Source: Stephanodiscus triporus
Lineage: Eukaryota > Bacillariophyta > Thalassiosirophyceae > Thalassiosirales > Thalassiosiraceae
Assembly: GCA_036939755.1 (NCBI GenBank)
Contig: JALLAZ010001029.1
Location: forward strand, 1 to 10,644
Length of the DNA stretch: 10,644 nt
Reading direction: 5' to 3'
Shown: piece by piece, positions 152 to 10,644 of the stretch
How positions within the stretch are numbered: the stretch's first letter is position 1
Layout of the letters: every line of letters starts with the position of its first letter
Notes under the pieces: model-generated
What the model saw: only the letters and a program-made list of their open reading frames with translations
Told to the model about the DNA's origin: nothing
Database searches by the model: none
Translations under genes and position numbers: made by a program

Positions 152-1067
152 ATGCTTGTCCAAGCCTCCATCGCGCTCTTCCTCTTTTTATCCCGACACG
201 CGCTCGCCATGTCCACCTCGTCATCGCCCAGCGACAAGCGCATTATTTCCGTCACGGTCTTCAGCGACCTCGCCTGACCGTGGTGCTACGTGGGCCAGAA
301 GAAGCTCGATGCCGCCATCGGCACTTTCCAAGCCTCCTCCGGCAGGCCGCCCATCGTTGTGGAATGGAAGGTGCGAATGCGAACCGATGAAATTGAGGGC
401 CTATTTTTTGATCTTGCGTGTCAGTCACGTCATCCATCCATCCTTCTCATCTCTTTCGTCCCATGTCAATCCTCCTCATCGGCAGCCATACATGATCGAC
501 CCCAACACAAAAATCGACGGCGAAGAATTCGAGGCCTACAACGTCCGCCGGTGGGGTGGCTCCGGCTGGACCCAGGGCTTGAGGACGAGCGGACGGAAGG
601 TCGGGGCAGACTTTAGAAATTGGAGGACGTGGCCGAATACGCTGAGGGCGCATCAGCTCATCGCGTACGTTACAAATCCCGACAGGCGGCGAGTGGTCGA
701 CGACAGCCGCGCGCCGCCGCCGTCCACGTCGGAGTGCAACGCCGCCATCTTCGACGCCATGTACGAAAGGGGGGAGAACGTCTCTCTGACGGAAACGTTG
801 GTGAGAATCGGTACTGAGAAATTGGGCGTCGCGGAAGAGGAGGTTCCCGATTTGCGTTCGCACCTCGAGACGAATGCGGGCGCCAAGGACGTGATCGGGG
901 AGATCCAATCGGGCAGGAGGCGGTATAATATCAAGGGCGTGCCGCACTTCGTCGTCGGCGCCATGGACGGGGAAAGTTTCGTGGGGAGGCCGTACGGGTT
1001 CTCGGGCGCGCAGGATTCGAGTGCGTTCGTGGAGATGTTCGAGGAGTTGGCAGGAAAGCTCGATTAA
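152..1067 (+). CDS. FrnE/DsbA-family selenoprotein (UPWC active site), two exons
   Basis: Predicted thiol-disulfide oxidoreductase of the FrnE branch of the DsbA thioredoxin-fold family. The model is exon 1 at 152-370, intron 371-485 and exon 2 at 486-1067, giving 266 residues. Exon 1 reads VTVFSDLA-UGA-PWCYVGQKKL, so the in-frame TGA at 275-277 sits exactly on the first Cys of the family CPWC motif and is best read as selenocysteine (residue 42, with Cys45 as partner). Splicing joins VVEWK to PYMIDPN. Exon 2 then shows the family landmarks: NTLRAHQL, the helical NAAIFDAMYERGENV, the cis-Pro loop GVPHF, and YGFSGAQ near the C-terminus. Starting at ATG 152 adds a signal-peptide-like MLVQASIALFLFLSRHALA and suggests the secretory pathway. 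Starting at ATG 209 (247 residues) removes it and would suggest a cytosolic protein. A pseudogene with one nonsense mutation is the main alternative, but everything else in the gene is intact. Confidence 0.85.
275..277 (+). other. In-frame TGA read as selenocysteine
   Basis: This is the only stop codon in the otherwise open exon 1 frame. Preceding codons give FSDLA and following codons give PWCYVG. In FrnE-type proteins this position is the nucleophilic Cys of CPWC. TGC or TGT to TGA is a one-base change, as seen in Cys/Sec homologue pairs generally. Confidence 0.82.
371..485 (+). other. Intron in the FrnE-like selenoprotein gene
   Basis: This is a 115-nt phase-0 intron with donor AAG|GTGCGA and acceptor CGGCAG|CCA. 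Removing it joins two different reading frames so that the family motif W-K-P-Y-M is continuous. Without splicing, exon 1 runs into sequence with no family resemblance. Confidence 0.9.
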
Positions 1068-1114: not shown

Positions 1115-1178
1115 TTTGCTTTGTGTGAATGACTGAGTGGCAAGAAGCTTCATGCTTCGACATTCATGACAATGCAAA
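1115..1178 (+). promoter_or_regulatory. Candidate SECIS element (type II-like)
   Basis: A stem-loop starts 48 bases after the stop. Helix I pairs 1115-1119 (TTTGC) with 1174-1178 (GCAAA). An asymmetric internal loop leads to a core ATGA at 1129-1132 opposite TGAC at 1167-1170, which can form the tandem G.A quartet. Helix II pairs 1134-1139 with 1161-1166, followed by a G/A mismatch and a C-G pair. Unpaired AA at 1142-1143 sits below a mini-stem, 1144-1148 (GAAGC) with 1154-1158 (GCTTC), as in type II SECIS elements. Helix II is shorter than usual (about 8 positions where 11-13 are common), so this is a candidate found by eye and not a scored hit. Confidence 0.55.
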
Positions 1179-1182
1179 CGCG

Positions 1183-1188
1183 AATAAA
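1183..1188 (+). terminator. Polyadenylation signal AATAAA
   Basis: A canonical AATAAA lies 115 bases after the selenoprotein stop and 4 bases after the SECIS candidate, so a cleavage site just beyond would keep the stem-loop in the mature 3' UTR. Signal use in this organism is inferred. Confidence 0.5.
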
Positions 1189-1472: not shown

Positions 1473-3269
1473 TTAAACTATAATCACGGGAGCATTCACG
1501 ATATTTTTCGTATTCTCGGCGACGAATTCCCTCGCCCACGCATCGCAACTCAGGATATCGTCCAACGTGACGTCGTTGACCCTGAAATCCTCCTTATGCG
1601 CCTCCATCGCCCCCTCGATCAACTTCGGAATGTCCAAGAAACCCAATCCCACGTCCTCGCGGAACATTTCGTTCGCCGCCTCGTTCGCGGCGTTCAGGAC
1701 CGCCGTCATCGTCCCGCCCATCCGTCCGGCGTCGTACGCGAGCTGTATGCAGGGATACTTCTCCCTGTCGGGGGCCTTGAACGTCAGGCTCCCGATCTCG
1801 GCGAGGTTCAACGGCTTGTACGGCATCCTGAGACGATGCGGCCACGAGACGCTGTACACGATGGGGAGGCGCATGTCGGCCCAACCCAGCTGAGCGATGC
1901 AGGACGTGTCCTGAGTCTCGACCATGGAGTGGACGATGGACTGGGGGTGGATTACAATGTCGATGTCGTCATAGCTCGCTCCGAAAAGGTAGTGCGCCTC
2001 AATAACCTTAAAGTTGTGTGCGTGTGTGATGTGAAAGATGTCATGTTTAGCGAACATATATTTGGATCAGTCACGTGTAAATATAGACCGGACAGCCAAG
2101 GATTCAAGGCAAAGCCGCGCAGAGGGGCGATCGAAGGCTCTGTCCGATGGAAAACATGTCGGGCGGAGACATATTACAAGATATAATGATGCCCAACATT
2201 AAAAGTTGACACCTCGACACACTCAACAAGACCGAACCGACGACCCACGTATATACATAACAAAAAAAAACTCAAGACTCACCTCCAATCCCTTGTTCAT
2301 CATCGTGGCGCTATCCAGCGTGATCTTCGCGCCCATGTCCCAATTGGGATGCGTCGTGGCCCTCCCCTGCACGGCCCTCTTGTCGGTCTCGCACAAGCGG
2401 AACAATTCCTCCCTCGTCAGGTCCCTGAACGCCCCCCCCGAGGCGGTTAGGACGATCCTGCGCAATCCTCCGGGAGGGACGCCCTGCAGGCACTGGAAGA
2501 TCGCGGAATGTTCCGAATCGGCGGGGAGCATGTTGATCCCGTGCTTCTCCACGAGGGGATTGATCACGGGTCCGCCGGATATCAACGTCTCCTTGTTCGC
2601 GAGGGCGATGTCCTTCCCGAGCTTGATCGCCTCGATCGTCGGGAGCAACCCCGCCGAGCCGACGATGCCGGTAACGACCGTGTCGGCGGACGATACCGTC
2701 GCGGCCTCGACGATCCCCTCCGGCCCGTGCACGATGTCCGGCATGTCGTCGCATCCCCTCTCCCGAAGTATCGTCCTCAATTTCTCGGCGGCCTCGGGGG
2801 TCGATAGGGACGCGACCCTCGGGCGGTACCTCACGACCTGGTCGGCCATCAGCTCGGCGTTGTTCCCCGCGCTGAGCGCGTCGACGACGAAGTTGTCGGG
2901 ACACGCGTCGACGATCTCGAGCGTCTGCGTGCCGATGGAACCCGTGCTCCCGAGTATCGACAGGCGCTTCCTGAACGTCGACCCCTTGAGGCACTCGTCG
3001 AGCGTCTTGCGCAGGGACGATGCGGTGTTCACGGGGGAGGACGGGTCGATCCACCCCTCGCCGGTCCCCGCGGATCCCGGGGGGGAGAACGACGCGTTCA
3101 GGACGACGACGTCGGCGGCGTTCGTCGTTTTCGTGGTCGACGACGACGCGACGGAGACGGCGGATCGAGGAGGGACGAATGAGTGGGCATCGCGGACGAC
3201 GACGACGAGGAGGAGGAGGAGGAGGGGGGGGGCGCCGTGGGCCAGCAGCGGGGAGGATGGCAGCTTCAT
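1473..3269 (-). CDS. dxr: 1-deoxy-D-xylulose 5-phosphate reductoisomerase (DXR/IspC), two exons
   Basis: DXR converts 1-deoxy-D-xylulose 5-phosphate to 2-C-methyl-D-erythritol 4-phosphate with NADPH, the first committed step of the plastid MEP isoprenoid pathway. Exon 1 is 3269 down to 2283 (329 codons) and exon 2 is 2006 down to 1473 (177 codons plus stop), giving 506 residues. Landmarks in order are the NADPH loop GSTGSIG (107-113), NKE (225-227), the metal-site DSEH (251-254), TASGGAF (275-281), THPNWDMG (306-313), [11 protein letters not shown] (319-329), [16 protein letters not shown] (349-358) and VLNAANE. The N-terminus has a hydrophobic L/V-rich signal peptide (about 13-25), then DAHS|FVPP, a variant of the ASAFAP plastid-import motif with Phe31 at the cleavage point, and a Ser/Thr-rich transit peptide. 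This predicts import into a secondary plastid. The ATG at 3269 is chosen because it directly precedes the signal peptide. Function is near certain; the exact mature end is inferred. Confidence 0.97.
2007..2282 (-). other. Intron in dxr
   Basis: This is a 276-nt phase-0 intron with donor GAG|GTGAGT and acceptor TTTAAG|GTT on the minus strand. Splicing restores the invariant [14 protein letters not shown]. The Glu of NKGLE, by homology with bacterial DXR a metal ligand, is the last codon of exon 1. Confidence 0.95.
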
Positions 3270-3854
3270 GATCGGTGGTGTGTGTGTTGTTCTATGTTGT
3301 GGACTAAGAGAGACGTAAGTAAGTAGAGTAAATATTATGGTTCTGCAAATGTCAAATCGAAACAACACAACAAATTCAGTAGGTAAAAACAAAATGAACC
3401 ATTTCGTTTTATTCCCACAGTAAAATATGATCGTGGGCGCACTCTGATAATACCTATAATATTTGTATATTTATTTACATAATCCTAATGTCGGGTGGAG
3501 GGGGGGGGAACCCGAAAAAAGAAAAAAACGACTTCAACAAGTTTGGATTAAAGTTAAGCAAAAGCAACGAATGTCAGATACATCATATTTTTCTCAATTT
3601 TTCAACCATAAGTATCGTACTCAGTGATGATTTTTCAATGATATGACACCCTTTTTCAGGTACAAAATATGTCTATGTCATCTTTTGATTAGCTCTTAGT
3701 ACGTACTCCCCCAAGGCTCGGTGTGATGGGGGAGGAGAGAGGAGAGGGTATGATATCATACACCCTCTACGGGGAGGATCGAGGAGACTCATACGAACGT
3801 AGGCCGAGGACCTCAGCCCGGCGCCGGGGGCCAAGATCCCGCCCCCGGACAATA
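3270..3854. promoter_or_regulatory. Divergent promoter region between dxr and the gene at 3855
   Basis: About 585 bases separate the two divergent start codons. The part near 3330-3680 is AT-rich, unlike the GC-rich coding DNA on both sides, as expected for a promoter. It holds poly-A and poly-G runs near 3496-3530 and the palindrome at 3748-3761. I could not assign a convincing TATA box or initiator. Confidence 0.5.
3748..3761. repeat. Palindrome C, third copy of GTATGAWWTCATAC
   Basis: This is a perfect 14-bp palindrome, GTATGATATCATAC, flanked by GAGG on the left and, after one extra A, CCCTC on the right, echoing the GAGGG/CCCTC arms of palindrome B. It lies about 95 bases upstream of the preferred start at 3855, a distance similar to that of palindromes A and B from the selenoprotein start at 152. 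Confidence 0.85.
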
Positions 3855-5220
3855 ATGACGACGTCCAACGCCGCGCTGCTCGCCGCCCTGGCGGCGATCC
3901 ATTCCCTACTCGCCTCGCTCCCGTGCACGACGACATCGTCGTCGTCGTCGCATCATCATCATCATCAACGCGCCTTCGTCGTCGTCGTCGACTGCTTCTC
4001 CCCCCCCCATACCCCCCCCGCGCATCATCGTGCTAGCGGCCGACATCGTCGACGACGACTGCGACGACGACGACGACTACGCGACAACGACTACGACGAC
4101 GAACACGACGGCGCGACTGCGTCGTCGTCGTCGTCCGATGGTCGTCTTCATCTCGCGGTGAGCGGCGCGTCGGCGAACGACGACGGCGACGGAGGGATGG
4201 GAGGGGGAGGGGTAGGGGGGGGGATGGGCTTCCACTACGACTCGGAGCCGCGGGGCACGTCGTACATATCCAGGATCAGCGAGATCGACCTGCGGGAGCG
4301 CAGGCGTCCCGATCGATTCGTCGTGCCGCCTCCCGGCGTCGGCGTCGGGTTCGGCGGCGCGTCGTCGTCTTACGCGACAACGAGACAACGACCTCCCCGC
4401 GGCGAGATCGGCGGCGTCGTCCCGTCCCCCTCCTCCGGCAGTCGCAGTCGTCCTCTCCCTCGGGAGGAGGAGAGGGACGACGACGATCTCGTTCACGTCG
4501 AAGACGATCTCGGATCCCGTCGTCGTCGGGACGGCGTCTCCTCGTCGACGGCGGAGGACCTGCTAGATGCGATGACGGCGCTCCTCCGGGAGATGAAGGC
4601 CGCCCGGGTGGGCGCGAATGACGTGCGGGGTCGGCCCTACTCCCGCGGCGACGGCATCTACGACGACGACGACGCTTCTGGGGGAATCGGGAGGGAGAGG
4701 GGTGCGCGTCGATGGGGGGCGCGGGGGGAGGGAGGAAATAATGGATCGACGAGGACGAGGACGAGGACGACGACGGCGGGAGGAGGAGGAGGAGGGGGCG
4801 CCGACGTCGCGAGGGGAGGGAGGGGCGGCGGCGACGACGACCTCCGTCGTAGGATCAGGGATGCGATCGACAGGTTCGAGAGGATCGCGTCCTCCGATCA
4901 TTACCGCGGCGGGAGAAAGAGCGGGAGGAAAGTTGAAGAAGACGACGATGACGACGACGACGAGATCGCGAGGGACGACGACGAGATCGCGAGGGACGAC
5001 GACGAGATCGCGAGGGACGATGACGAGATCGCGAGGGACGACGACGAGATCGCGAGGGACGACGACGAGATCGCTAGGGACGACGACGAGTGGTACTACG
5101 CCGTGTCAGAGGTCTCGTGTCTCGAGGCCGAGTTGGACGAGATCGACGAGGAGGCGACGAGGATGCGATCGTCGTCGACATCGACGGCGGCGGACGACGA
5201 CGATCGCGGCGGGCGGCAAC

Positions 5221-5252
<32 letters not shown>

Positions 5253-5954
5253 AGGGTCGATAGTCGTCGTATCGAGGAAAAATTGACCAGGATCGAGGAC
5301 GCGATACGCAATGTGGAAGACATGCTCGGGGCGCAGGTCGAGGTCGTGGACATGCTGATCAATCGCGGAGGGTTGGACGATGACGACGGCTACTACGACG
5401 ACGATGAGCGTCCGTCGTCGTTCGACGAGGACGCGGAATACCGGATGCGAACGCCTCGGCGTCCCACCCCGACGCCGTTTGTCGAGGGACGAGGACCTCC
5501 GCTGCTCCCACTCCCCCCTCCTCCCCTTCGTCCTATCGACGACGGACGCGCCTACCGCCAAGGGCGGAATATCGACCGCGATGGTGCCATGCCGTCCTCG
5601 CAACGACGACGGGGGAATGAAAGCGCCAACGAGCGCAGCGAGGGGCATTACTACGACCAGATGAACACGTCGTTCATATCGGCGTTCAGCAGGATGGACA
5701 ACGAACGAAGGAGGGAGTTTCGTCCGTTCGCGGACGAGCGGTTGCGAGGGAAGGCGGTCGGCGCAAACAACATGCGGGCTCCTCCGAATCGGGTGTGTTC
5801 CTCATATACGCCGCCGCCTTCGGAGACGTATGCGATGATGATGCCTGAATATTTCGACGGGATGCCGTATCTTTTTGACGAGGACAGATCTTTGATGACG
5901 ATGGAGGAGGAGGACGAAGGCTACTATTACGACAACGGCATTTATGACTTTTGA
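3855..5954 (+). CDS. Low-complexity Asp/Arg/Ser-rich protein with N-terminal signal peptide, unknown function
   Basis: Single-exon frame of 699 residues from ATG 3855. No known family is recognised. The start is chosen because it opens a plausible signal peptide (MTTSNAALLAALAAIHSLLA). The frame extends upstream to ATG 3723, but those 44 extra residues are charged and precede the signal. Next come Ser and His runs, an Arg-rich stretch, an Asp/Gly-rich linker, a more complex segment TSYISRISEIDLRERRRPDRF (about 135-155), and helical segments (AEDLLDAMTALLREMKAA and LRRRIRDAIDRFERIA). Then follow six EIARDDD repeats (370-411), a probable coiled coil with EEKLTRIEDAIRNVEDML (about 472-490), and an acidic, Tyr-rich tail ending NGIYDF. 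Most of the chain looks disordered. The RAFVVVV near residue 39 could be a degenerate plastid-cleavage site, but this is weak. Much of the opposite strand is also open because of the GAC/GTC repeats; the signal peptide and the varied C-terminal region favour this strand. Confidence 0.7.
3935..3970 (+). repeat. Trinucleotide runs (TCG then CAT)
   Basis: A TCG/GTC run is followed by a CAT run within the start of the low-complexity protein, coding for Ser then His homopolymers. Similar (GAC)n and (GTC)n runs recur through about 5440. Confidence 0.8.
4962..5087 (+). repeat. 21-bp tandem repeat, six copies, encoding EIARDDD
   Basis: Six in-frame units begin at 4962, 4983, 5004, 5025, 5046 and 5067. 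The unit is GAG ATC GCG AGG GAC GAC GAC. Only two differences are seen, GAC to GAT in the third unit and GCG to GCT in the sixth, both synonymous. A preceding Asp run (4941-4961) and a following DDDEWYY continue the acidic character. Near identity implies recent expansion. Confidence 0.95.
5226..5249 (+). repeat. (TCG)8 microsatellite encoding Ser8
   Basis: Eight perfect TCG codons lie in the frame of the low-complexity protein. As DNA this is the reverse complement of the (GAC)n runs that encode Asp upstream, so the two classes of run could pair in single strands. Confidence 0.9.
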
Positions 5955-9359: not shown

Positions 9360-10644
9360 ATGAACCAGCTGAACGTTGCCCGCAAATCCCTCGAAATAGC
9401 CCGTGACAACATCGAGCGAGATCTTAACGAGATAATCTCGGCACTCAAGCAAGGAAAGAGCGGGCTGGTAAAGCGCTTGAACGAGTTGAATATCAAGAAG
9501 CATGAAATCGCCGAAGCAAATGGCAATCTAGATGCCGCAGACAATGACCTCGTGGAAATCAATGCCGGCGGGAAAATCGTAGTTGCCAAGCGATCTACCT
9601 TGACTCAAATACAAGGAACCAGGTTGGAAGCATTGTTCAGCGGGCGATGGGATAAGAAGCTGTTGCGGGACAGCCACGGACGCATCTTCCTTGACGTTAA
9701 CCCGACTTGTTTCCAAGCCATTGTCGATTATCTGAGCGAGAGGATGATTTCATCCGAGGACAGTCCTCCGAGTCCTCCAAGTGTGGATGATGAGCGCGCA
9801 CACATTCTTCAATGCCAGCTTGAGTTGTTTGGGCTCTTGGATAAGGTGCCAACTATAGACGTTGAATTTCCTGACAGCAACATCATCGAAGATGCTGGGC
9901 ATTGCACCGTACTTCATGATTGGCTCAAGGAAGATGGTTCAGATGGGGAGTTGAGTCTTCTTTATCGAGGATCTAGCGATGGACTATCAACTTCGGCCTT
10001 CCACTCCAAGTGCGACAACATGGGTTGCACCCTCACCATCATCGAAACGACTTGTGGTAAAGTCATTGGAGGGTATTCCAACACATCCTGGACAAGCAGT
10101 GGCAGCTACAGTGCGGCGAACAAGGCCTTTTTGTTCACGCTCTCTGGCGGCGGAATATCATCTCCCTGCAAGATGAAATTGAAGGATGAGAATGACCAAT
10201 ATGCAATCGCCAATGGTTCATATCGTGGCCCAACATTTGGTGGCGGCCATGACATGTCTGTGGATGGTTCTCAAGTTAAAATTTATCCGGGATATTCCTA
10301 CCACGCAGGGCCACTCACAGAAGGATCGTATACCATCAACGAAATGGAAGTCTTTCAAGTGACCAACTCATCACCTCAAGCAAGGATTGCTACTTCGAAA
10401 GGAAAACAACCCAAGCATACCAGCAAGGCCCTCAAGTCTGCTCAGGGTAAAACTCAGACAGTTGAACCATTCACCAGCAGGTTCTCAGATGACATCAATA
10501 AAGCGATCAACGCAAACGTTCAAGCCGAGTCGGAAATGCTCCAGCTTGAAGAAAGTTTTGAGGATGAGCAAACATTCATCGAGAAATTCGCAAGCGGCGA
10601 TGCAAAGGATGTTGTCGCGCTCAATGTCAGCGGCACCATCATGG
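9360..10644 (+). CDS. BTB (T1)-TLDc domain protein, C-terminally cut by the window
   Basis: Open frame of 428 codons with no stop before the window ends. The ATG at 9360 is preceded by an in-frame TGA three codons upstream. Residues 1-60 are a predicted coiled coil. Residues 63-163 are a KCTD/T1-type BTB domain (DLVEINAGGKIVVAKRSTL, then LEALFSGRWD, DSHGRIFLDVNPTCFQAIVDYL). Residues about 185-334 are a TLDc domain (LLYRGSSDGLSTSAFHSKCD, TLTIIETTCGKVIGGYSNTSW, FLFTLSGG, then the FGGGHDMSV and EMEVFQV strands). A Lys-rich linker and a second coiled coil follow. At 416-428 KDVVALNVSGTIM restarts a BTB domain, so the full protein probably has at least two BTB units. By analogy, BTB/T1 domains oligomerise and can recruit cullin-3 ligases, and TLDc proteins are linked to oxidative stress protection and V-ATPase interaction. 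Neither role is demonstrated here. There are no introns so far. Confidence 0.9.
   Translation, partial: MNQLNVARKSLEIARDNIERDLNEIISALKQGKSGLVKRLNELNIKKHEIAEANGNLDAADNDLVEINAGGKIVVAKRSTLTQIQGTRLEALFSGRWDKKLLRDSHGRIFLDVNPTCFQAIVDYLSERMISSEDSPPSPPSVDDERAHILQCQLELFGLLDKVPTIDVEFPDSNIIEDAGHCTVLHDWLKEDGSDGELSLLYRGSSDGLSTSAFHSKCDNMGCTLTIIETTCGKVIGGYSNTSWTSSGSYSAANKAFLFTLSGGGISSPCKMKLKDENDQYAIANGSYRGPTFGGGHDMSVDGSQVKIYPGYSYHAGPLTEGSYTINEMEVFQVTNSSPQARIATSKGKQPKHTSKALKSAQGKTQTVEPFTSRFSDDINKAINANVQAESEMLQLEESFEDEQTFIEKFASGDAKDVVALNVSGTIM

Follow-up and report, generated by a model that had tools for sequence, protein, structure and literature searches.

The 10,644-nt stretch of Stephanodiscus triporus DNA analysed here (the window) very probably encodes a FrnE/DsbA-family oxidoreductase in which selenocysteine (Sec) serves as the active-site nucleophile (U-P-W-C), its UGA codon being recoded via a form-II SECIS element. 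Although a stop codon seems to interrupt it, the gene is, as judged from its sequence and context, most likely an intact selenoprotein gene. The actual insertion of Sec, as well as the chemistry, substrates and compartment of the protein, we infer from the observations described below.

Gene structure and reading frame

The gene is located near the start of the window and consists of two exons followed by a candidate recoding element. The features, in window coordinates, are as follows.

152-370, plus strand: exon 1 of the FrnE-like gene (219 nt, 73 codons, codon 42 being TGA), from the reading frame and PF01323 match
275-277, plus strand: in-frame TGA, predicted to be read as selenocysteine (U42) in SDLA-U-PWC, from the frame and alignment
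284-286, plus strand: resolving Cys codon TGC (C45), from the reading frame
371-485, plus strand: GT-AG intron, 115 nt, phase 0, from the sequence
486-1067, plus strand: exon 2 of the FrnE-like gene (582 nt), with the cis-Pro GVP loop and the stop TAA, from the reading frame and PF01323 match
1115-1184, plus strand: form-II SECIS-like element, from fold and motif comparison

The joined exons comprise 266 codons followed by TAA, and the TGA at codon 42 is the sole in-frame stop within this joined frame. Apart from it, no further disabling change was seen across the frame. Since 115 nt is not divisible by three, exon 1 and exon 2 are read in different frames. The preliminary description had proposed that this intron joins them correctly, in agreement with its GT-AG boundaries, its phase and the presence of a PF01323 match in both exons; the 5' splice site (GTGCGA) does not follow a strong consensus. 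Two starts are possible, at ATG 152 or ATG 209, and by eye the N-terminus appears signal-like from the first and not from the second. The third-position GC is 0.80 before the TGA, 0.84 after it and 0.79 in exon 2, and the overall GC of the intron is 0.49. The ordinary Cys codons TGC and TGT are also used within the gene.

Family membership and the active-site column

Scored with Cys written in place of the TGA, the joined protein matches the DSBA profile PF01323 over residues 34-240 (E 2.7e-14, 53.8 bits, cut-off 25.6). Each exon also matches as a separate piece (exon 1, E 1.6e-5; exon 2, E 2.6e-4), both scores being below the curated cut-off when taken alone. The family homology claimed earlier for both sides of the TGA is in line with the two exon matches and the joined score. 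The NCBIfam profiles gave no match to the protein at E 0.01. Its best solved relative is the FrnE of Deinococcus radiodurans (PDB 5cp1/5cnw, E 3e-13), with CPWC aligned under TGA-PWC. The active site reads U42-P-W-C45, and the cis-Pro GVP loop (residues 224-226) is intact, so that the second Cys and the C-terminal loop are both present as initially described.

From 415 bacterial relatives, 80 were kept for comparison. All 80 carry CPWC at the column of codons 42-45, a count biased toward Cys because one of the two search patterns demanded CPWC. The GVP loop is found in 78 of the 80, and a stop occurs somewhere in the aligned stretch of six. Together with the FrnE structures, these relatives place Cys at the column of the TGA, as expected from the proposal that the TGA replaces the first Cys of the motif. 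Among viral contigs, 47 stretches fit a search pattern, with no relative among them.

In the proposed mechanism, the nuclear Sec machinery (tRNA-Sec and eEFSec) would recode UGA 42 under the direction of the form-II SECIS about 60 nt past the stop. The product would be a thioredoxin-fold enzyme with Sec42 as the nucleophile and Cys45 as its partner. Sec42 would act on disulfides of substrate proteins, either attacking or donating them, and would pair with Cys45 in a selenenyl-sulfide; the enzyme could serve as a reductase, an oxidase or an isomerase.

A second FrnE gene in the same genome

A second FrnE gene was identified at positions 1940-3014 of locus L020 (contig C47), where the only internal stop is again a TGA at the same active-site column (SDTI-U-PWCYIG). 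This gene was modelled as four exons, with GT-AG introns placed by eye. The two proteins share 28% identity by BLASTP (75 bits) and 31% in a MAFFT alignment. In comparisons with the retained bacterial loci, the best scores were 110 bits for the window protein and 146 bits for the second FrnE; since these loci outscore the paralogue match, the two genes are not recent copies of each other. We tentatively consider that two anciently separated FrnE lineages, both with a Sec nucleophile, may be kept in one stramenopile alga, Sec having been either kept or gained independently, a reading that we hold to be possible and no more probable than its opposite. If true, these would represent an unreported expansion of Sec-FrnE in diatoms or their relatives.

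A genome-wide search with the DSBA profile yielded two matches. Both lay on C47, and the window gene was not among them. A third, weak FrnE-like candidate on C865 (E 0.02), which contains a TGA and a TAA, was rejected, as tblastn of the window protein there was empty up to E 10.

The second gene bears on the possibility that the window gene is a pseudogene, in which a nonsense mutation or a sequencing error landed by chance on the active-site Cys codon. The intron donor, not being a strong consensus, counts in favour of such an explanation. Against it, a random stop must strike one particular codon: 86 single substitutions could introduce a stop into the gene, 17 of them in the form of TGA, and the one TGA present sits on the nucleophile codon. 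The frame is otherwise intact, with coding-like third positions on both sides of the TGA, the 28%-identical paralogue has the same TGA, and a SECIS-like element lies 3' of the gene. Chance disablement is accordingly regarded as very unlikely.

It is also hardly credible that readthrough places a canonical amino acid at the UGA (Trp, Arg or Cys from a near-cognate tRNA), or that a downstream start yields a short protein without the nucleophile. UGA readthrough is leaky in general, which speaks for this explanation; against it, the same catalytic position is affected in two paralogues, with a SECIS-like element after each. In addition, exon 1 has no in-frame ATG past the TGA, and a protein begun within exon 2 would not include the CXXC. 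The selenoprotein reading of the TGA can instead be compared with the rest of the genome.

Selenocysteine machinery and other TGA genes

The genome searched comprised 21.65 Mb in 1324 contigs. A tRNA-Sec with the anticodon TCA was identified by ARAGORN, and its score against RF01852 is 83.7 bits. This model is unspecific alone, with matches in 14 of 14 control genomes and above the cut-off in five of them. A second locus over the tRNA-Sec cut-off (L002 1501-1590, C114; 71.1 bits) has an anticodon that ARAGORN could not assign. The elongation factor eEFSec is encoded on C523, where the best PDB match is the eEFSec structure 5izk (E 9e-116). Other matches to the SelB profile, on C66, C143 and C244, were set aside as plastid tufA, eEF1A and an IF2-like factor, respectively (by eye).

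SPS2 (L019, C137) scores 208 bits against a cut-off of 125, and its TGA falls opposite the Thr of GTGCKVP in an alignment with selenide, water dikinase 1. Two further genes carry a TGA at a Sec site recognised by eye, namely GPx (L018, C875; NVASK-U-GLT) and SelT (L024, C1075; FCTS-U-GMK). A TAG listed beside the TGA in the GPx match lies just after GTGAGA and was read as intronic (by eye). The preliminary description had looked to the Sec machinery as a check on its reading, and this machinery is present (tRNA-Sec, eEFSec and SPS2), although SepSecS gave no match with either of two profiles (PF05889 and TIGR03531) in the 1324-contig assembly, searched exon by exon.

The gene for eEF1A, identified by eye, has TGA as its terminal stop, and so has a 743-aa open frame further along the window, which indicates that TGA is otherwise a stop in this genome; the five TGA genes (two FrnE, GPx, SPS2 and SelT) end in TAA or TAG. 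A nuclear code of the kind used by some protists, in which TGA would generally stand for Cys or a different residue, would fit a TGA at a Cys column and has a negligible probability in view of eEF1A terminating at its normal C-terminus, of the TGC/TGT Cys codons in the FrnE-like gene and of the SPS2, GPx and SelT TGAs at Sec sites, that of SPS2 aligning to Thr and not to Cys. The Sec assignment made at the outset is supported by the machinery genes, the other TGA genes with their codons at Sec positions, the paralogue and the SECIS-like element described next.

The SECIS-like element

The AATGAC of the window's SECIS-like element lies 61 nt past the FrnE stop. The element comprises helix I (1115-1126/1172-1184), a core of AATGAC (1128-1133) and TGAC (1167-1170), helix II (1134-1139/1161-1166), an AA (1142-1143) and a mini-stem (1144-1148/1154-1158). 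The predicted fold of 1112-1184 contains helix I, an internal loop (GAAUGAC and UGACA), a short helix II of 6 bp, GCAA, a 5-bp mini-stem and a 5-nt loop. Its stability is only modest (-20.9 kcal/mol, z -2.1, with 6 of 200 shuffles as stable), as is that of the longer stretch 1105-1190 (z -1.65, 15 of 200 shuffles). Excess stability is absent in the element of the second FrnE gene (z 0.26).

The motif AATGAC occurs exactly once within 500 nt 3' of the stop in all five TGA genes, at 58-98 nt (window FrnE, +61; second FrnE, +58; GPx, +98; SPS2, +81; SelT, +90). The background, taken from this genome on both strands with the five elements included and some loci overlapping, holds 67 sites in 206,224 nt, or 0.16 per 500 nt. 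In a mechanical list of 54 open frames of at least 150 codons, six have AATGAC at most 110 nt past their end; these include window FrnE, SPS2 and the SelT element as viewed from a frame lying upstream of it, so that 3 of 51 remain.

Among the 67 sites, five are the elements themselves and four lack an NGA within range, which left 58 for scoring. An AA 4-10 nt past AATGAC combined with five or more of the six helix pairs ahead of an NGA is present in all five elements and in 4 of 58 background sites. All six pairs form in four of the five elements (window FrnE included, the second FrnE having 5/6) and in 0 of 58 background sites. These rules were defined post hoc, with the sites already seen, and the counts are descriptive.

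Rfam SECIS_1 gave no match in the window or the genome and missed the other TGA genes too, and a SECIS_3 match at 10199-10253 was rejected (score 17.9, cut-off 63). An initial hairpin scan, which required at least 36 nt between the quartets, missed the window element. With a relaxed scan, this element was the only match in 405 nt, and the background gave 15 matches (13 distinct starts, the GPx and second FrnE elements included) in 59,690 nt; nothing was returned for SPS2. A wider hairpin descriptor failed to pick up SelT, and its only two hits for SPS2 were at sites other than AATGAC.

Neighbouring genes and other loci

Downstream of the FrnE-like gene, a 1-deoxy-D-xylulose 5-phosphate reductoisomerase gene with at least two exons was identified by Pfam on the minus strand (window 1473-3263). 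The two genes are convergent, which places the SECIS-like element within their shared intergenic stretch. Next on the plus strand (3723-5954) comes a low-complexity open frame of 743 aa, which contains tandem EIARDDD repeats and gave no Pfam match; it ends in TGA, with an AATGAC 67 nt past its stop. A BTB and TLDc domain protein (9360-10643, plus strand; Pfam) runs past the window end. Upstream of the FrnE-like gene, a palindromic stretch (20-84) with weak miRNA-family matches is perhaps a small mobile element.

Elsewhere in the genome, a RuBisCO_large match covering profile positions 1-145 was observed in a 1194-aa open frame (L117, C716:8034-8459). A plastid-like contig carries clpC, tufA, secY, rpoA, thiG, dnaK and groEL-like genes (named by eye), a gene set that we take to fit a red-lineage plastid.

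Significance and comparison with known systems

Standard gene finders would cut the FrnE-like gene at the TGA or begin past it, so that a phytoplankton redox enzyme would be overlooked. With this gene and its paralogue, the algal selenoproteome would gain a selenium-dependent disulfide enzyme in two copies. The AATGAC located 58-98 nt past the stop, observed in five genes of one genome, could aid the search for more selenoproteins of this lineage. What is generally understood about Sec use is unaltered.

Sec-containing FrnE/DsbA proteins have already been published for Micromonas and other Mamiellophyceae, Ciona, Branchiostoma and bacteria. According to the available sections of Jiang 2010 (PMC2874816), the DsbA selenoproteins of Ciona intestinalis, C. 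savignyi and Branchiostoma floridae have Sec at the upstream Cys of CXXC, and both Ciona DsbA genes carry a form-II SECIS. The same sections state that an earlier annotation had placed the Sec codon in the UTR, and cite earlier Sec-DsbA cases from bacteria, marine communities and Micromonas. Sec-FrnE is described in Mamiellophyceae and Mesostigma viride in the accessible part of PMC6627142, and FrnE (DsbA) appears as a selenoprotein family in that of SelenoDB 2.0 (PMC3965025). For the diatom Thalassiosira pseudonana, 16 selenoproteins are listed by Lobanov 2007 (PMC2375036), in the available portion of which the words FrnE and DsbA are absent; the "thioredoxin-fold protein" of that list could be related to FrnE. 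In a limited literature search, no report of a Sec-FrnE in a diatom was seen, and its absence from print is not claimed.

Compared by description with the DsbA proteins in the available sections of Jiang 2010 (PMC2874816), the gene reported here has in common the predicted Sec in place of the upstream Cys of CXXC and a form-II SECIS-like element, as in Ciona; it differs in coming from a red-lineage alga whose genome holds two diverged putative Sec copies. The Sec-FrnE proteins of PMC6627142 and SelenoDB 2.0 (PMC3965025), likewise compared by description from the accessible parts of these sources, share the family name and the kind of substitution, whereas they come from green algae and animals. 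Bacterial FrnE (PDB 5cnw and 5cp1) belongs to the same domain family and has CPWC at the same column; in contrast to the predicted diatom protein, it is a Cys enzyme without Sec.
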